Source: Corynebacterium accolens
GTDB lineage: Bacteria > Actinomycetota > Actinomycetes > Mycobacteriales > Mycobacteriaceae
Assembly: GCF_023520795.1 (NCBI RefSeq)
Contig: NZ_CP046605.1
Location: 1,843,438 to 1,907,437 of the forward strand
Reading direction: 5' to 3'
Length of the DNA stretch: 64,000 nucleotides
Both the position numbers and the translations under genes were made by a program. How positions within the stretch are numbered: the first letter of the stretch is position 1; every line of letters starts with the position of its first letter. The notes beneath the pieces are model-generated. The model was not told where the DNA came from. It ran no database searches and was given only the letters and a program-made list of their open reading frames with translations. Below, one piece after another: positions 3,560 through 61,700 of the stretch.

Positions 3560-5392
3560 CTAGCGCTTGTAGATGTGCTCGATGGCGCTGGCATAGCGCT
3601 GCGCCACCACGTTGCGCTTGACCTTCATCGTTGGCGTGAGCTCATTTTCATCCTCGGTGAGGTCGCTTTCTAGGATGTAGAACTTCTTAATGCCCTCCGC
3701 GTGGGACACCGTGGAGTTGACCTTGTTGACGGCGTCTTGCACCTCGGCGCGCAAGGTGGCATCGGTAGCGATATCGTCCATGGAGCGGTTTTCTGGGATA
3801 TTGTGGTCCAGCTTCCACCGCTTGAGGATGTCCGGGTCCAGGGTGATAAGCGCTCCCACGAACGGCTTGCCATCGCCTACGACCATGGCCTGCGAAATCA
3901 GCGGGTGGCCGCGCAGGATGTCCTCCATCGGGCCTGGCGAGACATTCTTGCCACCCGCGGTAACAATCAGGTCCTTCTTGCGGCCGGTGATCGTGAGCTT
4001 GCCATCATCGTCGATTTCGCCCAAGTCACCGGTGTTGTACCAGCCGTCTTCAAAGGCTTCCTCCGTGGCCTCGGGGTCATTCCAGTACCCTTCGAAGACC
4101 ATGCCTCCCTTGATGCAGACTTCGCCGTCATCGTTGATGCGCAGGGTAACCCCGCCAAGAGGCGGGCCGACGGTACCAATAGATTGGTCCACGTAGTCCA
4201 CGGCAGCGGCCGCGGCGGTCTCAGTCAGGCCGTAGCCTTCATAGATGGGCACGCCGATGCCGCGGAACCAGTGCAACAGATCGTGGCCCATCGCGGAGCC
4301 GCCGGTAATGCAGTACCGAACATTGCCGCCCACGCCCTGGCGAATGGTGGAATACACCAGCTTGTCAAAGAGCTTGTGCTTAATTTTCAGCAGGCGGTCT
4401 GGGCCGTCCGGCGTATCGAGTGCCTTGGAGTATTCGATGGCGATCTTTTCGGATTGCTCAAAAAGGAAGCTCTTGATGCCAGAATCCGCCGCCTTCGAGG
4501 CCGCGGAGTTGCGGACCTTTTCAAATACGCGCGGCACGCCCAAAATGACGTTGGGTCGAGAGCGGGCGAACTCGATGGAGATGGTGGAAAAATCGGACCA
4601 GTGGTTCTGCGAGGCACCGCGAAGGGCCACGGCAATCGATACGGCGCGGGAAAAGACGTGGGCCAAGGGCAAAAATGTCAGCGTATGGCTGCCCGGCACG
4701 GCGAAGACACCGATAGGGTTGGTGGTCAGCGCCCTAGCTTCCGAGAGCCAGTTCCGGTGCGTCAGGATGCAGCCCTTCGGGCGGCCGGTGGTGCCGGAGG
4801 TATAAACCAAGGAGGCCAGGTCATCGGTATTGGTGGCGGCGATGCGGGCAGACACCTCGTCGGTGCCAACGCTGCGGCCTTCGAATTTCAAGGTATCGAT
4901 GGCGGAGGAATTAATCTCTAATACGCGCCGCAGCTGCGATGGTGAGCCCTTCAAATTCGGTTCCCCATCGTCTTGCAGGACCAAGTTTTCTACTAATTCG
5001 GAGTGCTCACGGGTTTCGGTAATCGCCAGCACCGCCCCGGAATCCTCGATAATCCAGCGCACCTGGGAGGCAGACGAGGAAGGATAAACCGGAACCGATG
5101 CCGCACCGGCGGCCCAGATGGCATAGTCCAGCAGGGACCATTCGTAACGGGTAGCAGAAATCAGGGCGATGCGATCTCCCTGCTCCACGCCTAGCGCGAT
5201 TAAGCCTTGGGCTACTTCAAAGACCTCATCGATAAACTCTTTACCGGTGACATTGACCCACTCATAATTAGCTGGGCGGGTAAACATGACGCCGTGCGGG
5301 CGCTTCTTCGCGGTATCCATCAGGGCGGTGAGGCAGGTCTCCCCCGGCTCAATGGTAAATTCCGCCGGGGTGTGCACTTGTTGCAGGGTCAC
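3560..5392 (-). CDS. fadD15: Long-chain fatty-acid-CoA ligase (FadD15-like)
   Basis: A 610-residue AMP-forming acyl-CoA synthetase. It activates fatty acids to acyl-AMP and then acyl-CoA in the cytosol or at the membrane. The P-loop-like motif YTSGTTGRPKG is near residue 195, YEGYGLTETAAAA near 385, and the hinge/aspartate block GWYNTGDLGEID...GRKKD near 455-480. Length and motif set match the FadD15 group of mycolate-forming actinobacteria. The gene stands alone, with its own terminator and a perfect 14-bp palindrome about 45 bp upstream of the start. A TetR-type control is therefore likely. Substrate chain length cannot be told from sequence. Confidence 0.93.
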   Translation of the reverse strand: MTLQQVHTPAEFTIEPGETCLTALMDTAKKRPHGVMFTRPANYEWVNVTGKEFIDEVFEVAQGLIALGVEQGDRIALISATRYEWSLLDYAIWAAGAASVPVYPSSSASQVRWIIEDSGAVLAITETREHSELVENLVLQDDGEPNLKGSPSQLRRVLEINSSAIDTLKFEGRSVGTDEVSARIAATNTDDLASLVYTSGTTGRPKGCILTHRNWLSEARALTTNPIGVFAVPGSHTLTFLPLAHVFSRAVSIAVALRGASQNHWSDFSTISIEFARSRPNVILGVPRVFEKVRNSAASKAADSGIKSFLFEQSEKIAIEYSKALDTPDGPDRLLKIKHKLFDKLVYSTIRQGVGGNVRYCITGGSAMGHDLLHWFRGIGVPIYEGYGLTETAAAAAVDYVDQSIGTVGPPLGGVTLRINDDGEVCIKGGMVFEGYWNDPEATEEAFEDGWYNTGDLGEIDDDGKLTITGRKKDLIVTAGGKNVSPGPMEDILRGHPLISQAMVVGDGKPFVGALITLDPDILKRWKLDHNIPENRSMDDIATDATLRAEVQDAVNKVNSTVSHAEGIKKFYILESDLTEDENELTPTMKVKRNVVAQRYASAIEHIYKR

Positions 5393-52988: not shown

Positions 52989-53125
52989 AACTCAATAGTG
53001 TACAAAGCTTCCGGCACGAGTCCCCTTCATTGGGGCGTATTTCCCCCATGTGCGCAGCACATTATGCCCGGGGTGGGGGCACTCGCCCCAGCGGACGAGG
53101 CCCCACTTCCCCACTCGCGCGGTGG

Positions 53126-54658
53126 CTAACCCTGCCAGCGGTCGCGGTTGGCGCCCTCGCGGGTGACCTCTTCCTCGTCTCCGTAGTCGAATTCATCGAC
53201 CAAGCCACGCCGGGCCTGGGAGGCGCGCTTGCGCTCCGCCGCGGAGACGCGGTTGGTGCCCTTCAGGCGGGCATCCTCGCCGCGGCTGGCCATGGTGGGA
53301 TCGCCGCCGGTCATCGGCTCCCACTCGAAGGTAATCCCGCCAATGGTCACGGGGCAGCCTTCCACCGCGCCTTGCTTGTGCAGCTCGTCTTCCACGCCGG
53401 CCTTGGCCAGGCGGTCCGCCAGGTAGCCCACGGCTTCATCGTTTTCAAAGTCGGTCTGGGTAATCCAGCGTTCGATCTTTTCGCCTTCCACGATGAATCC
53501 GCCCTGCACCTCTGGATCCGGGCGCACATTAAAGTCCGCGAAGCTGCCGGTGTTTTTCTTATGCGCCTGGGCCTTGGGGTGAATCACGGTATGGGAAGCA
53601 TCCCGCTTGGGCTTGGGCTGTGCCTTGTGGTGCTCGGTGACCATTTCCATAAGCTTGAATTTCAGCGGATCCAAGCCCTTGCGCGCCGCCGCAGAGATGA
53701 TAAACACCGGCCAGCCAAACTTTTCCTTGAGGTCATCCTTGACGAACTCCGCCAGTTCTTCCGCCTCCGGGACATCCGCCTTATTCAGGATGATGACGCG
53801 CGGGCGCTCGCGCAGATCCCCCAAGCCGGTATCGCTTTCTAGCGCCTCCTGATATTTAGCCAGCTCATTTTCCAGCGCCTCAATATCGGATTCCGGATCG
53901 CGGCCCGGCTCGATGGACGCGGTATCAACCACGTGGGCTAGCACCGCCGTGCGCTCGATGTGGCGCAGGAAGTCCAGCCCCAAGCCCTTGCCATCGGCAG
54001 CGCCAGGGATAAGGCCGGGGACATCGGCAATGGTAAAGGAGCTATCGCCCATATCCACCACGCCCAAATTAGGCTGCAGGGTGGTAAACGGGTAATCACC
54101 GATCTTCGGCTTGGCAGCAGAGAGCACCGAAATCAACGAGGACTTGCCCGCCGAAGGGAATCCGACGAGCCCCACATCCGCCATGGATTTCAGCTCGAGT
54201 ACCAAATCATGGGCCTGCCCCGGCTCGCCCTGCAGTGCAAAGCCCGGCGCCTTGCGGTTCTTGGACGCCAGCGCCGCGTTGCCCAGGCCACCGAAACCGC
54301 CCTCAGCCGCGACGAAGCGCGTGCCCGGCACGGTAAGATCCGCTAGGGTCTCGCCCTTTTCCGTGCGCACGACCGTACCCGCGGGAACCTCCAAAATCAG
54401 GTCCTCACCGCGCGCGCCATTGCGCATATCGCCGGCGCCGTTGCCGCCACGCTCGGCCTTAATATGCGGCCGGTAGTGGAAATCCATCAAGGTATGGATC
54501 TGCTCCGAGACCTCCAAGATGATGTCGCCACCGTGGCCGCCATTGCCGCCATCCGGTCCACCCAGAGGCTTGAATTTCTCACGGTGGACAGACACGCAGC
54601 CATGCCCACCGTCGCCAGCCTGCAAGTGCAAGACGACGCGGTCAATAAAACGTGCCAT
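53126..54658 (-). CDS. obgE: Obg-family GTPase
   Basis: A 510-residue ribosome-associated GTPase. The glycine-rich Obg fold is at residues 1-158 ([15 protein letters not shown]). G1 is GFPSAGKSS near 166, G3 DVPGL, G4 LNKAD, then the OCT domain (residues about 370-440) and an extra 70-residue basic tail. ATG 54658 is chosen because AAGGG lies 8 nt upstream. Normally obgE follows rpmA directly; here a 3-kb module separates them. Confidence 0.95.
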
Positions 54659-54730
54659 GGTCAAACCCTTCGTTCGCGCAAACTTTCTCTGCGCCAGTGT
54701 AGTGCGTATCTAAGCCTGGACTCCAACCCA

Positions 54731-55696
54731 TCAGCCTATGGTGGACTCTGGCCAACTAGTTGCTCCATTTCGAGCATCCCAATGCCGCTTTACATCTGCT
54801 GCCGTTAGTGTTGTTGGATATACGGCTGCGAAAGCCATAAACCCTAAAAAGTTGTCATCAAAGCTAGGCTCCGGCCATGCGTAATTACCGCCACTATAAC
54901 CGTAACGGATATAGCCCCTATTACGCGGCATCTGATAAAGCCCAGAGGTAGATGTGGAAAACACCTCTGGTTTGCCATCTAAATAGATTCCCATTTCACG
55001 GGTACGGGAATTCCACGTTGTTACTACTTGATGCCACTGACCATCGTCTACACGGGAGAGACTTGCCAACTGGTCTGTACTTGTATTTGCTGATTGCGAT
55101 TCCCTTACTTGAAAGGCCACAGTTCCATCGTGCAATACTTGGACTCGCCACGACGGATTTGTGGAATTGCCGTGTAGCGAGTCAACGACAATGGTTCCCT
55201 GTGGACGCTGGGTATTTATCCAGGTTTCGGTGGTGAATTGCTGCGGCATGGTGACCGGGTAATTAGCAGTGATCGTGTTCCTTACTGAAGAACCACCACC
55301 AGGGCTATTCCCGCCGGGGAAGTAGGAATGTTTATTTACCCCCACGCACGGCTCACTGCTCGCTTGAACGGTACCGTTGTAGTCCCAATTTCTATTTGGT
55401 TGAATTGCTTGACCATTATCTTGCTTCCACACCCGGTTGTTCAGCGAATCATTGGTGGCTTCAGAATAATCAGTATGAAAGTGGTACAGATACCCACCAT
55501 ATTTTTTGGTGGTTTCTTGCATCTCTGCATAGCAATTAAGCCCGCTCACGCCTTGAGCAGTGCCTACTGTATTGGCTTCATTAGAAATCCTAGCGCTCCA
55601 GCTGCCCATCGTCGGACGCAGACCAAGGGCCAAAACCATAATCATGATCGTTAGTGCTGCGGTCATCAGCACTGGGATTCGCTCTCTTCTAAGCAT
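54731..55696 (-). CDS. Exported LamG/concanavalin-like surface protein with SipW-type signal
   Basis: A 321-residue secreted protein. The hydrophobic signal (residues 7-26) is followed by WSARISNEANTVGTA at 33-47, the same pattern as YSAQITNDGNTAGTG in the small protein encoded upstream (56669-57289). A LamG-like beta-sandwich covers about residues 135-310 (TIVVDSLHGNS, WHQVVTTWNSRTREMGIYLDG). It starts 8 bp inside the signal peptidase gene. LamG domains bind sugars or proteins, so an adhesin or matrix part is likely. Codon use is A+T-richer than flanking genes. Confidence 0.82.
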   Translation of the reverse strand: MLRRERIPVLMTAALTIMIMVLALGLRPTMGSWSARISNEANTVGTAQGVSGLNCYAEMQETTKKYGGYLYHFHTDYSEATNDSLNNRVWKQDNGQAIQPNRNWDYNGTVQASSEPCVGVNKHSYFPGGNSPGGGSSVRNTITANYPVTMPQQFTTETWINTQRPQGTIVVDSLHGNSTNPSWRVQVLHDGTVAFQVRESQSANTSTDQLASLSRVDDGQWHQVVTTWNSRTREMGIYLDGKPEVFSTSTSGLYQMPRNRGYIRYGYSGGNYAWPEPSFDDNFLGFMAFAAVYPTTLTAADVKRHWDARNGATSWPESTIG

Positions 55697-56579
55697 CTCG
55701 ACCCACCGCCGAGAATTCTGTCGTGGTCGAAGTAGAATCTTGCTGAGCTTCTTCTCTTAACGCGCGACGATATTGTAGGTAGAACCAGATAAATGGAGAA
55801 ATAACCAAACCAAGTAGGCCCACAGCCCATGGCCAAGTCAGAACAGGCCGGGGCTGAAAAACAAAGTCACCTTTGTCATTGGGTTCGTAATCTATCGCCG
55901 TTGCATCCGAACCGGTAGGGGTCATTACGTCTGAATCTTCTCCCCCACCATCGCCCAGTGGTACGACCTTGACTGGTAAAAGCCCAGTAGATACAACATG
56001 CGCTTCCGCGTAGGCATCCTCACCGCTGCCATTGATGTGCATGCCGAGCAGGCTAGCTCCGAGCAATGGGCGAATGATGATGATTCCAATGGCTAACCCC
56101 AAAAACACGCCGGTGTGCCTGTAGCGCCTGCGATGCAATTCATCTTCTACGCGTAATGACGCTACGAACATTAGGAGCCAGCCAACGGCCATGATGCCGA
56201 GAATTCGAAGTCCCCAACCCAATGCTGGGCTCGAAAAAATAACCTTACCTTCAAGGTTGTCATCAGTAGCCGCCGCGGCATCTGGCGCACCGTTAAGAAC
56301 GCCTTGCGTTATGGCAGATTGGTCCATCATTTCCACAACATTGTGCGTATGCGTAGTGTCATTAGCGCCCCGGACGGTAACCGTATCGCCCGTTTCCACA
56401 TCACGTATCGGTACCGGTTTGGTCACAGCCAAGGAGCCTACGGGGAGTTCGGTGCCCATCGAGGGGGTTGTTACGAAATGAGCACGGTACCCCGCCAAGA
56501 AAAATCCTGCACCGATTATGGAGAGCACTAAAACGACAACCGCCACAACGGTCGTGAGAATACGGCGGCGTGCCTGCAT
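55689..56579 (-). CDS. SipW-type (Ser-His) signal peptidase I
   Basis: A 296-residue membrane protein. The first span is followed by TTPSMGTELPVGSLAV, where Ser40 fits the S26 nucleophile. The general base is His79 in HNVVE instead of the lysine of ordinary bacterial signal peptidase I, as in SipW and the eukaryotic/archaeal enzyme. Three more spans follow (residues about 125-145, 160-185, 255-275) with an external loop between. ATG 56579 is preceded by GGAG at 8 nt; TTG 56612 is an alternative. It lies between two genes whose products share its expected cleavage motif. Confidence 0.82.
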   Translation of the reverse strand: MQARRRILTTVVAVVVLVLSIIGAGFFLAGYRAHFVTTPSMGTELPVGSLAVTKPVPIRDVETGDTVTVRGANDTTHTHNVVEMMDQSAITQGVLNGAPDAAAATDDNLEGKVIFSSPALGWGLRILGIMAVGWLLMFVASLRVEDELHRRRYRHTGVFLGLAIGIIIIRPLLGASLLGMHINGSGEDAYAEAHVVSTGLLPVKVVPLGDGGGEDSDVMTPTGSDATAIDYEPNDKGDFVFQPRPVLTWPWAVGLLGLVISPFIWFYLQYRRALREEAQQDSTSTTTEFSAVGRDA

Positions 56580-56668
56580 ATCATTAACTCCGGCGTTGTG
56601 GCGATGTTTCAAAATGTATCGTGCGGGGACTATCTCCCTTTACCCTGAATTACAAGAGGTAAATGCTT

Positions 56669-57289
56669 TTAGGCGGACAGCGTCCAGACCAGATTCTGCG
56701 AGATTTGCTGCCCCATAAGCGAAGTGTCCGTAGTCCCCTCTGGCAAGGTCACGGTGATTTCGAAATCCTTGGTCGCATCGACCTTCATAGGGGATTCGAT
56801 ATTTATAGTTTGACCGGACAATGCTGACGGTGACTGCTGGTTGGCCAAAGTCTGATCACCAGAGGTGACAGTCACCTGCAAAGCATCACAAAGCGAATTG
56901 GCGGACTCATTCTTTCCAGTTGCCGTGCAATCACCGAAGTTCAGAGTGAAGGCGGAGGCGTCAACCGAGCCAGTGTTCTTAAACTGTACAGTCGTAGTCT
57001 GAGAATCCCCTGGCACCATCTTCATATTGCCACCGTATTTATTGATGTCTGAAACGGCGATGGTGTTGTTATTTCCGGAGGCAGTATCTTGGGTCTTGGT
57101 GGGTTGACCATCAACGATCTCGGATTCCGACATGGTCAGCTTACCCGTGCCAGCAGTGTTCCCATCGTTTGTAATCTGGGCGGAGTAGGCGCCCAAGGTT
57201 CCAGCGGCAAGAGAGGCGATTAAAGCAACAGAGGCGACGGAGGCGGGAAGGACCCAACCCTTGCGGGTGCGCTTTTGAGATTCAGACAT
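56669..57289 (-). CDS. TasA/camelysin-like exported protein with SipW-type signal
   Basis: A 206-residue exported protein. A basic N-terminus and one hydrophobic stretch (residues 13-34) are followed by YSAQITNDGNTAGTG at 35-49. The rest is beta-rich and asparagine/threonine-rich (VPGDSQTTTVQFKNTGSVDASAF), as in TasA, camelysin and SipW-dependent exported proteins. There are two cysteines (DCTATG, SLCDAL) that could pair. AGGAG lies 7 nt before ATG 57289. First gene of the module; a fibre or matrix subunit is the leading guess. Confidence 0.8.
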   Translation of the reverse strand: MSESQKRTRKGWVLPASVASVALIASLAAGTLGAYSAQITNDGNTAGTGKLTMSESEIVDGQPTKTQDTASGNNNTIAVSDINKYGGNMKMVPGDSQTTTVQFKNTGSVDASAFTLNFGDCTATGKNESANSLCDALQVTVTSGDQTLANQQSPSALSGQTINIESPMKVDATKDFEITVTLPEGTTDTSLMGQQISQNLVWTLSA

Positions 57290-57314
57290 AGGGGTGCTCC
57301 TCATAGGAAAAGTA

Positions 57315-57346
57315 GTGATGCAATAAGGGCTGATTGCCCTGATCAC
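57315..57346 (-). promoter_or_regulatory. Hairpin in the leader of the TasA-like gene
   Basis: GTGAT at 57315-57319 pairs with ATCAC at 57342-57346, and AGGGC at 57326-57330 with GCCCT at 57336-57340 around TGATT. It lies about 15 nt upstream of the ribosome site in a leader of some 140 nt, so translational control is possible. Confidence 0.35.
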
Positions 57347-57434
57347 GAACACGCCTGGTGGCGGCACCCATACCCTTCACGGGCGAGGGAAAATCATGCT
57401 TCGCCTAGCAATACGGCGCGTCGTTGCTTTGTTG

Positions 57435-57464
57435 ATTTTACCGCCAGAATATAAAAGGAGTCAA
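57435..57464 (-). promoter_or_regulatory. Promoter of the SipW/TasA-like module
   Basis: On the minus strand TTGACT (57464-57459) and TAAAAT (57440-57435) are separated by 18 bp. This is close to the sigma-A consensus and gives a leader of about 140 nt. Confidence 0.6.
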
Positions 57465-57850
57465 CATCGTAAACACTGTGCTCAACCCCTCTGACACATA
57501 TTATGCAGTCGAGAAGCATCTAGTTCGCTTAACCTATTAACTAACTGATACGTTCAAAGCCATCAAAAGCCCCCTCTTGCTAGGTCCCACTCCCCCAAAG
57601 TGGGCAATACAGGACTCACAAAGATTGAATATGCAAAAATCTGCCGCATCGCACATTGTTGAGCGGATGAATCACCTGCACTGGAAAGGAAACTATTTTC
57701 TTTAATTTTCTTCTGGTTAAAGGCCTTATTGTCGACCTCAGAAGATTCATTCCCAAGCGTAGGACTGGTAGCACACCATACGCGCGCAACCCCGCCCCAT
57801 TCATCTGGGCCTCTCTACATTGACCCCTCTGAACTCAAGGAGCCCAAGAC

Positions 57851-57902
57851 AAAGAAAAATCCTCGATCCACTCTCACGTTTTGTGACAGTGGCTCGAGGA
57901 TT
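57851..57902 (-). terminator. Rho-independent terminator of rplU-rpmA
   Basis: AATCCTCGA at 57858-57866 pairs with TCGAGGATT at 57894-57902, with inner arms CCACT/AGTGG and TCAC/GTGA. On the minus strand it is followed by TTTCTTTG. It separates rpmA from the following module. Confidence 0.9.
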
Positions 57903-57920
57903 AAGTTCTTTGAGCAGAAG

Positions 57921-58199
57921 TTAAGCAGTAGCTTCTGCTGCAACCTCTTCAGCCGGGATGATGTTGACCATCCGGCGACCGCGCTTGATGCCAAACTTTA
58001 CGGAGCCAGCAGCAAGTGCGAACAAGGTGTCGTCGCCGCCGCGACCAACGTTCTCACCTGGGTGGAACTTGGTGCCGCGCTGACGCACGATGATCTCGCC
58101 GGCGTTAACCTGCTGACCACCGAAGCGCTTGACGCCGAGGCGCTTGGACTCGGAATCGCGACCGTTGCTGGAGCTGGAAGCACCCTTCTTGTGTGCCAT
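57921..58199 (-). CDS. rpmA: 50S ribosomal protein L27
   Basis: A 92-residue ribosomal protein near the peptidyl-transferase centre. [23 protein letters not shown] is the standard N-terminus. It has an alanine-glutamate-rich C-tail ([13 protein letters not shown]). It lies 43 bp after rplU with GGAGGG before the ATG. Confidence 0.98.
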
Positions 58200-58242
58200 G
58201 TCGTTTCCCTCCTTCGGGGATGATTTACAGCCCGGTTAAGGC

Positions 58243-58548
58243 TTACTTGATACCGGTGATCTTCAAGGTGGTCAGAGGCTGGCGGTGACCCAGACGCCTC
58301 TTGTAACCAGTCTTGTTCTTGTACTTCAGGATATCAATCTTTGGACCTTTACCCTGTTCAACGATTTCCGCGGAAACAGAAACCTTCTCCAAGTCGGAAG
58401 CCTTGGACTTCACAGCGGCGCCATCGACGAGCAGAACCGGGGTGAGAGCCACGGCAGAGCCTGGCTCACCCTCGATCTTCTCGACCTTGACGAGGTCACC
58501 TTCAGCAACCTTGTACTGCTTGCCGCCGGTCTTGACGATCGCGTACAT
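58243..58548 (-). CDS. rplU: 50S ribosomal protein L21
   Basis: A 101-residue L21 protein ([34 protein letters not shown]). Normal length. It is first of the rplU-rpmA unit, with a leader of up to about 220 nt between rne and its start that may hold the L21 leader element; I see no clear fold to call. Confidence 0.98.
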
Positions 58549-58772
58549 AGAGGGTTACCCCTTATCTAAACTCGCTCGGACACGGCATCCAGGCCGTCAT
58601 CCGAATGGACACTTACATATTGCGTTCAGACCTCGCGCGAACATGTCCGCAATCACCGGGCGGCAATTGTGGGCTGATCCAGCGCCGAGAGTTCTAAACA
58701 GCGACTGTCAAAGACTACCCCGCCGCGGGTACAAAATACAAACCACGCACTTCGTCCCCGCGTGGCGGTGCG

Positions 58773-61700
58773 CTAGGACGTAGACCGCCGTGCTACGCGG
58801 CGCTGCCGCCGGCCCGCATCCTTAGCTCCAGTCTGCGGGGTCTCCGGCGCGTTTGTAGACGCCTTTTCCCCAGCACGTTCCTGTCGCGCAGCTGCTGCCG
58901 GCGCCCCCGTCTTTTTCACCGCGCGCTTCTTCCCACGGCGAATAACCTTGGTCTCGGTCTGCGGGGCGCTAGCCTTCTGGGAATCCTTCTCCCCTTGAAC
59001 AGGTGTAGCCGAAGGCGTACCCGCGTTGTGCGAGGTGGCTTTATCCCTCGGGTTGGTACGCACCACGCGGCGCTTGCCGCGACGGCCTCCCTGTGCCGGG
59101 GAATTCTTCTTCCCGCCACTGATATTTTCGTGGCGCTGCTCCGCCGTCCGCGAGGAGTCCTCGCCCTTATCGCCGTGCTGCGCCTCCTGGGCGTTGGCCC
59201 GGTGCGAAGCCTGCACGGTAGCCCGGCGAGAGTTCGGCTGGGTGCGAACACTGCGGCGCCGGCCGCGCCCGCGTGCCTTGCCCCGGGACTGCTGCTGCTC
59301 GCCTTCCTGCTGGGCCACATCGTCACCGCGGGCCTTATCGGAGGAACTCGCGGATTCCGCCTGTTGTGGCTGGGCAAAATCCTCTGGGCGCGGGCGATTA
59401 TCGGAACGCGAATTCCCGCGTGTGCGGTGCTTGCGGCGCGGAGAGGCCTCAAACTCGGCTACTGCCTCCTCGTAGGTCTTCTCCGGCGCATCGGCAACTT
59501 CTGCCTTCTTTTCCTCAGCCTTTCCTTCAGCGGCCTGCTGGCGCTTGTTCGGCTGCTCCTGCGCGCGACGGGTCGCAGGCGAGGTCCGCGTTGCCCGGCG
59601 CGGCTTCTTGCCCCGCTGGGTGCGCTTCTTCTCCTTCGCCGGTGCTTCTCGGCCATCGGGCACATAGGAATTAAATTCCTGTACCTCATCGCTTTCGGCG
59701 GCGTTGTCCGCCGCGGCATAGGCGATGGCCTCGATTTCAGAGACCTCAGACTTCTTCTGCGCCCGGCGGCGCTTCTTCTGCTTGCCCTCGCTGCGGCCTC
59801 GGTCGTCGCGGTGTCCGCGGGCGTTATCGGCACGCTTCTGGGAATCCTTCTGCTCGGAGTCACCGGTCTCATCGTCTACGACGACATTGGCCACCAGCTC
59901 TTCCAGCGACGGTGACTGCTCGTCCTCGTTGCCGTAGAGCGGGGCGTCCGTCTTCTGGTACTTCTGCGGCTGGGACGTGGCATTCCTGCGGCCCTTGCGT
60001 CCCTTCTGCCCCTTCTTCTCCGCGCGCTCGTCCTCATCGTCGTGCTCGTGCATGACCACGGCAGCCGGATGCTGCTGGGGATCGTGCTCAGGCTTCTTGT
60101 GAGCCTTGGAGGAACCGTGCGAGTGGTGGCCGGAGTGGTTGTCTTCTGCTTCATCGACCGGGTACTCGTGGATGATGATGCCGCGGCCATGGCAGTGCTC
60201 GCATTCGGTGGAAAAGGTCTCTACCAGGCCGGTGCCCAAACGCTTGCGCGTCATTTGCACCAAGCCCAGGGAAGTAACCTCGGACACCTGGTGGCGCGTG
60301 CGGTCACGGCCCAAGGCCTCCTTCAGGCGCCGCAAAACCAGATCCTGGTTTTCCGGCAGCACCATGTCAATAAAGTCCACCACAATCATGCCGCCCAGAT
60401 CGCGCAGGCGCATTTGGCGCACGATTTCCTCGGCAGCCTCCAGGTTATTGCGGGTCACGGTCTCTTCCAGGTTGCCGCCGGAGCCGGTGAACTTGCCGGT
60501 GTTGACGTCGATGACGGTCATGGCCTCGGTGCGGTCGATGACCAAGGTGCCGCCAGAGGGCAGCCACACCTTGCGCGAGAGCGCCTTATGCAGCTGCTCA
60601 TCAATGCGGTAGGCGGCAAAGGCGTCTTGGCCGCCGTGGTCCTTCGGCTTATAGCGCACCACGCGGTCCGCAAGATCCGGGGCCATGGATTCCACGTAGG
60701 CATTGACCGTATTAAAGGACCGCTTCCCGTCCACGATCAGGCGGTGGAAATCTTCGTTGAAGAGGTCACGGACAACCTTGATGAGCATATTCGGCTCTTC
60801 ATAAAGCGTGACCGGTTTAGCGCCCTTAGAGGATTTTTCCTTCTTGGCCTGGGCGGAAATATCTTCCCACCGGTTATGCAGGCGCTGCACGTCGGTTGCG
60901 ATGGCCTCTTCGGGAACGTTTTCGGCAGCGGTGCGGATGATGGCGCCGCCATCGCCTGGCACCACGCGGCCCAAGATGTCTTTCAGGCGCTTGCGCTCCG
61001 GTGCCGGCAGCTTGCGTGAGATTCCGGCGCTGCGCCCGCCTGGAACGTAGACGAGGTAGCGCCCGGCCAAGGAAATCCGGGTGGTCAGTCGCGCACCCTT
61101 GTGGCCAATCGGATCCTTTGCCACCTGCACCAAAATCTGGTCGCCGGATTTCAGGGTATTTTCTACCTTCCGGGAGCGCCCGTGCAATTTGGTCTTGCGC
61201 CAGTCAATCTCGCCGGCATAGAGCACACCATTGCGGCCTTGGCCGATGTCCACAAATGCCGCCTCCATAGACGGCAAGACGTTTTGCACGCGGCCTAAGT
61301 AAATATTGCCAATGAGGGAGGCCTGGGACTCGGTGGTAACGAAGTGCTCGACCAAGAGGTCATCTTCAAGCACGCCAACCTGCGTGACGACGCCCGCGCC
61401 GTCCTCGCGCTGCTTATCGCGCACCACCATGGTGCGCTCCACGGCCTCGCGCCGCGCCAAAAATTCCGCCTGGGAGACGATGTGCTGGCGCTCGCGGCCC
61501 TTCTCGCGCAATTCTGCGCGGCGGCGCTTCTGTGCCTCGATGCGGGTGGAGCCACGGATAGCCTTGGGCTCATCGATAAGCTCCGGCTCCTTATCCGCCG
61601 CCTCCTTCTTGGAGCTCTCGTTCCCGCCGCGCCCGCGGGAGGTACCGCGGCGGCCGCGGCGGCGCTTGTCAGAACCCCCGCGCGCTGCCTTATTGCCTGC

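Follow-up and report, generated by a model that had tools for sequence, protein, structure and literature searches.

Analysis of a 64,000-nucleotide window of the Corynebacterium accolens genome (contig NZ_CP046605.1, positions 1,843,438 to 1,907,437) revealed a module of three genes between rpmA and obgE that code for a TasA-like exported protein, a SipW-type signal peptidase and an exported protein with a LamG domain. With a probability of roughly 60%, this module is a TasA/SipW-type surface-fibre system, self-contained and independent of sortase, in which the LamG protein serves as adhesive terminal subunit. The established points are the gene content, the similarity in fold, a conserved residue at the donor-strand interface and a substrate segment that is confined to two proteins. 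A SipW/TasA-like module had been proposed from the DNA letters by an initial sequence-only reading, and this proposal survived hidden Markov model comparison, structure search and inspection of both the interface residue and the shared substrate signal.

All three open reading frames (ORFs) expected in the rpmA–obgE interval were found, running in one direction on the minus strand, where the order of transcription is rplU, rpmA, TasA-like gene, peptidase gene, LamG gene and obgE. The TasA-like gene (56669..57289, minus strand) codes for 206 residues, the peptidase gene (55689..56579, minus) for 296 residues from the ATG at 56579, with a TTG at 56612 as an alternative start adding 11 residues, and the LamG gene (54731..55696, minus) for 321 residues. 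The TasA-like gene is separated from the peptidase ATG by 89 bp while the start of the LamG gene overlaps the stop of the peptidase gene by 8 bp. The module is A+T-rich, as had been noted, with a G+C content of 51.1% compared to 60.9% for the window; equally low values were observed in 5 of 308 sliding windows of the same size, every one overlapping the module. The peptidase gene occurs once in the genome, which is a single contig of 2.47 Mb.

The predicted model of the TasA-like protein displayed the TasA fold in a structure search, in which the bundling pili of Pyrobaculum calidifontis (7ueg) ranked fifth. TasA entries were also the top sequence matches in the PDB, but at an E value of 0.03. 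No Pfam family matched up to an E value of 1 and the only curated family near the protein, TIGR04089 (exp_by_SipW_III), was not passed (E 0.006, 16.7 bits against a cut-off of 60). Cleavage is predicted after Gly33, resulting in a mature N-terminus A34-Y35 that corresponds, by position after the predicted cut, to the A28/F29 start of TasA. Pro93, Cys121 and Cys134 are invariant in 13/13 actinobacterial sequences and Pro93 aligns opposite P62, the donor-strand interface residue of TasA. Judged from the alignment, both parts of the TasA interface, the A28/F29 start and P62, have counterparts in the C. accolens protein, with the aromatic residue after the predicted cut replaced by Met in one of the seven Corynebacterium homologues.

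The N-terminal half of the peptidase matches the archaeal/SipW-type model TIGR02228 (E 3.2e-11, 43.3 bits against a cut-off of 51.85) and the SipW model NF046067 (E 6e-6, 26 bits against 190). That the second gene might lack the S26 fold, the outcome named beforehand as speaking against the module, did not come true, as SipW-type models match, though below their cut-offs; on these profile matches the protein is a relative of SipW and no equivalog. The predicted Ser40-His79 pair was recovered and is completed by Asp100 (numbered from the ATG at 56579). These three residues are invariant in all 13 aligned peptidases, which originate from seven Corynebacterium genomes including that of the window, five other actinobacterial genomes and one Leifsonia plasmid. 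The enzyme thereby has the endoplasmic reticulum (ER)-type Ser-His set (with Asp) instead of Ser-Lys. Outside the SipW models lies a C-terminal region, which a low-confidence model divides into helices, an ectodomain (about residues 176-245) and a last helix. The ectodomain carries the motif V-x-T-G-x-x-P, of which V196, T198 and G199 are present in at least 12 of 13 sequences and P202 in all 13. The peptidase model is weak (mean predicted local distance difference test score 63.8) and gave no PDB match at E 0.001, an absence that is not evidence. Since two ordinary S26 peptidases (PF10502) are coded elsewhere in the genome, the SipW-type peptidase is additional to the ordinary ones of the cell.

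That the third gene codes for a LamG-type protein was borne out by a match to PF13385 (Laminin_G_3) over residues 147-303 (E 1.9e-15, 57.7 bits against a gathering cut-off of 27.6), and the same domain was matched in 7/7 Corynebacterium members at E 0.001 or better. In a profile search of the PDB, neurexin, pentraxin and laminin chains led. The profile also weakly matched lectin-like chains, some of them from clostridial toxin complexes (E 0.013-0.077), which is taken to reflect a common jelly-roll fold, and its signal region weakly matched the flagellin-like protein 8rey (E 0.015), probably as a hydrophobic segment. The folded part of the protein is the Laminin_G_3 domain and not an immunoglobulin-type domain as in TapA. 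Its predicted cut falls after Gly31, giving the mature N-terminus S32-W33. From its sequence the protein is no TapA, but its N-terminus may work in a TapA-like manner.

This suggestion stems from the N-terminal segments of the two substrates, which comprise a SipW-type signal and a donor-strand-like segment at 57122..57259 in the TasA-like gene and 55535..55672 in the LamG gene (both minus). Thr-x-Gly closes both signal regions and precedes a small and then an aromatic residue; the cleavage points are predicted from likeness to TasA. The Thr and Gly are invariant in 14/14 sequences (both families, seven carriers) and 13 of them have an aromatic residue at the second position past the cut, the remaining one Met. 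According to PMC10269814, an aromatic residue at that position is badly handled by E. coli LepB, and TasA, which bears one, is processed by SipW. The likeness extends past the cut: scored against the TasA-like profile in two column ranges outside the anchoring motif, the LamG segments averaged 6.3 and 9.8, values that were reached in 0 of 5000 shuffles; the N-terminal segment of the LamG protein is in this respect like that of the fibre subunit. In the six frames of the window, a strict motif based on these sequences gave two matches, which lie in the TasA-like and LamG genes. Similarly, a profile of the segment identified exactly two genes per genome in the seven carriers (14/14, E 3.4e-17 or better; next best E 0.33) and nothing significant in five non-carrier genomes (best E 0.37). 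Recovery of the 14 segments is expected because the profile was built from them; what is informative is that no third gene appeared and none in the non-carriers. At one locus outside the genus (L070:8046-9779, minus; L numbers denote loci and G numbers genomes), peptidase and LamG are joined in a single open frame that measures 578 residues from stop to stop and has a SipW-type signal in between, which suggests a precursor open to cleavage by its own peptidase.

In the mechanism that we favour, the ER-type peptidase with its Ser-His-Asp set would cut its two dedicated precursors at an unusual site common to both, between Gly and a small residue followed by an aromatic, and each cut would release an N-terminal beta-strand. 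The TasA-like protein would then polymerise by donor-strand exchange, like TasA. As the LamG protein shares this N-terminal strand, here on a ConA/laminin-G-type lectin domain, it could occupy one fibre end, as proposed for TapA, and act as adhesive terminal subunit. The additional peptidase ectodomain may serve to retain subunits at the membrane. Two points lower the confidence in this explanation slightly. The motif and profile were derived from the very proteins that they recover, and the secondary matches are weakened by the caveat that VIA-align itself attaches to them.

A fibre system in which the LamG protein is the membrane-proximal anchor or nucleator, the strict role of TapA, instead of an exposed adhesin, is considered unlikely. 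It shares the fibre with the favoured explanation and differs in the end that the LamG protein holds. LamG/ConA-type domains typically bind ligands, and the LamG protein changes faster than the other two (60% identity to the C. tuberculostearicum copy, compared to 79% and 74%), as for an exposed adhesin; both arguments point away from an anchor, neither of them decisively. Consistent with an anchor are the resemblance of the LamG N-terminus to the fibre subunit, which is TapA-like, the peptidase–LamG fusion described above, which would keep LamG membrane-held before cleavage, and the overlap of its start codon with the end of the peptidase gene, an arrangement described for tapA-sipW in PMC10151520. 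Somewhat more doubtful still is a dedicated secretion pair, where the peptidase would export a camelysin-like protein and a lectin that stand alone and do not polymerise. In its favour, an exported protein is paired with a short SipW-like peptidase in two-gene units of other members of the genus (G043 and G156, by eye), units that need not build fibres, and TIGR04089, to which the TasA-like protein comes closest, is named for its signal type. A decaying insertion that no longer works, which patchy distribution and low G+C might suggest, is already disfavoured and highly improbable given frames intact in both C. accolens and C. tuberculostearicum, synonymous divergence far above nonsynonymous for the TasA-like and peptidase genes, and catalytic residues invariant in 13/13 sequences.

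The closest known counterpart of the proposed fibre system is tapA-sipW-tasA of Bacillus subtilis, which shares the fibre-subunit fold, the interface proline, an ER-type peptidase and two substrates with similar N-terminal segments. Both also have overlapping start and stop codons, of tapA and sipW in B. subtilis (PMC10151520) and of the peptidase and LamG genes in Corynebacterium. The corynebacterial module differs in its host, in having a LamG lectin domain in place of that of TapA, in the C-terminal extension of the peptidase and in a cysteine pair that all 13 actinobacterial TasA-like proteins share. The TasA/CalY/CapP system of Bacillus cereus is likewise a sortase-independent filament system of TasA-type subunits and SipW (PMC13082335; gene order PMC10151520); B. 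cereus has two TasA-type subunits and CapP while the module has one TasA-like subunit and the LamG protein. To the P. calidifontis bundling pili the likeness is a structural match of the subunit. TIGR04089 proteins resemble the module in their alternate signal type and SipW-like partner peptidase, and units of such look occur in other Corynebacterium, but the C. accolens protein falls below the family cut-off and the two units that were read have a short peptidase and no visible LamG partner. SpaA-type sortase pili are surface-fibre cargo at the rpmA–obgE site in relatives; they differ in their covalent assembly by sortase, their LPXTG proteins and their genes, which are unrelated to the module. 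No sortase or pilin family was found among the three module proteins, and the three sortase matches of the genome lie elsewhere. As a sortase with LPXTG-like neighbours is coded at another place, C. accolens may make both kinds of fibre. No paper naming both SipW and LamG was found in a literature search, and among papers naming SipW, TasA and Corynebacterium no title was about such a system, judged from titles. The novelty lies in the LamG partner with a fibre-type N-terminus and in the enlarged peptidase; the working parts are the same as in TasA/SipW.

The module was evaluated in 201 Corynebacterium genomes drawn from a larger group. The peptidase was matched over most of its length in seven of them, and the TasA-like protein was found in the same seven. 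A LamG gene is present in all seven carriers, in six by search and in the seventh (G047) by reading the DNA, with Laminin_G_3 confirmed; a weak, stop-ridden LamG match in G007 was not counted. C. tuberculostearicum FDAARGOS_993 has the three genes in the same arrangement, and in C. falsenii (G157) the LamG gene is roughly 22 kb from the other two on the same contig. A scan of named genomes with one narrow peptide pattern returned these two relatives and says little on distribution. Partial SipW-like matches only were found in seven further Corynebacterium genomes. Three such genomes were read, and in two of them another exported protein and a roughly 200-residue peptidase form a two-gene unit (by eye; L075:5998-7341 in G043 and L076:6742-8243 in G156). 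Across the class, SipW-like peptidases are widespread (109/394 genomes, that of the window included), and among the matches listed five genomes besides this one reach into the C-terminal region of the peptidase. Outside the genus, a TasA-like gene lies in the same stretch at 6/6 loci with the extended peptidase and a LamG gene at three of the six (Laminin_G_3 confirmed 3/3). Carriage on plasmids was rejected, with two partial matches in 72,556 plasmid records, one of them (Leifsonia) with a TasA-like neighbour. A viral origin was rejected too, as none of 52 pattern matches in viral contigs was related to the TasA-like set.

All three frames are intact in C. accolens and C. tuberculostearicum. 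Between the two, nonsynonymous (dN) and synonymous (dS) divergence were 0.13 and 1.6 for the TasA-like gene and 0.19 and 1.9 for the peptidase gene, the dS values being near saturation; LamG dN was 0.32 with synonymous sites saturated. At this saturation dS gave no date for these two closest copies, which may have been inherited or transferred, and the state of the site may reflect gain or loss. Mirror-tree correlations of 0.84-0.86 fell to 0.21-0.34 without this pair and were therefore not used as evidence.

The site itself (54665-57920 in the window; loci L079-L111) is a variable hotspot in Corynebacterium that holds pili, the module or other cargo. The survey covered 144 genomes in which rpmA and obgE lie on a common contig and the same strand; in five others the two genes are apart, and for two further genomes one of the two rows is missing. 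The distance between the genes was below 300 bp in 81 genomes, at least 700 bp in 56 and at least 2 kb in 32. Of the latter intervals 29 were read: three hold the module (C. accolens, C. tuberculostearicum and G083), seven a sortase-pilus cluster and 19 match neither, where pili were identified by SpaA and Sortase domains and a pilus unlike the query pili would escape. The remaining three belong to genomes without a listed peptidase match, such that the module lies beside obgE in 3/144 genomes, contrary to the prospect of the same three genes in nearly all Corynebacterium. ORF lists of the relatives' loci were mechanical, with some frames wrong in high-G+C stretches, and only named genes were relied on. 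In other carriers the module lies elsewhere, e.g. before dnaX in G044 and G090 (G090 by eye). One pilus cluster at the site (G142, L087, around 3739-4224) contains an insertion sequence-type transposase (HTH_21, partial rve match). In G025, G046 and G135 (L089, L090 and L110) the interval codes for one small and two large (546-736 residues) exported-looking proteins of unassigned kind. Sharing of the site by module and pili may be coincidence because unrelated cargo uses it too.

ObgE is at least 93% identical in eight of 151 genomes, of which G000 and G005 hold the module, G051 and G108 a pilus, and G104, G004 and G092 an empty site, while G073 has the genes on separate contigs. Compared with the empty sites, homology stops at a terminator-like inverted repeat behind rpmA (57856..57904, minus; seen by eye, not listed by the scan that gave the promoter-like match and kept in module-free relatives) and returns 2 bp beyond the LamG stop codon, in the conserved obgE upstream region (54665..54728, minus). 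These are the upstream and downstream edges of the variable segment, and the cassette therefore leaves the flanking signals of its neighbours intact. The claim that the module was inserted fits in so far as the site is empty between matching flanks in close relatives, a difference that may stem from gain on one side or loss on the other. A mobile element at the site was considered and rejected, with no transfer RNA or transfer-messenger RNA gene in the window and no recombinase family matched by any of the three proteins; the cargo was more likely exchanged by way of the conserved genes on either side.

The upstream region did not bear out the remainder of the sequence-only reading, which was in all partly confirmed: its core held while the good promoter and long leader failed. 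A promoter-like match of 10/12 exists 5' of the TasA-like gene (57435..57464, minus), but the scan found three sites where 3.4 are expected in shuffles. The 631-bp upstream region is not conserved against the C. tuberculostearicum copy: the two have in common only the inverted repeat that follows rpmA and, close to the start codon, a match of 14 bp that is insignificant. No Rfam family, and hence no riboswitch, was found in 53000-59500 up to an E value of 1. The C. tuberculostearicum locus has an extra ORF for a membrane-protein-like product of 146 residues between rpmA and the TasA-like gene (L031:9964-10404, minus).

If the favoured explanation is true, some corynebacteria, C. tuberculostearicum included, own a second, non-covalent surface fibre with an identified adhesin, built by one protease and its two substrates, a closed set that lends itself to easy testing. 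Tentatively, the module would represent a class of donor-strand fibres in the mycolic-acid-layered Corynebacterium, with TasA-type shafts, a LamG lectin cap and the peptidase ectodomain as starting platform. As the module shares its site with sortase pili, close relatives may switch between two unrelated fibre types.
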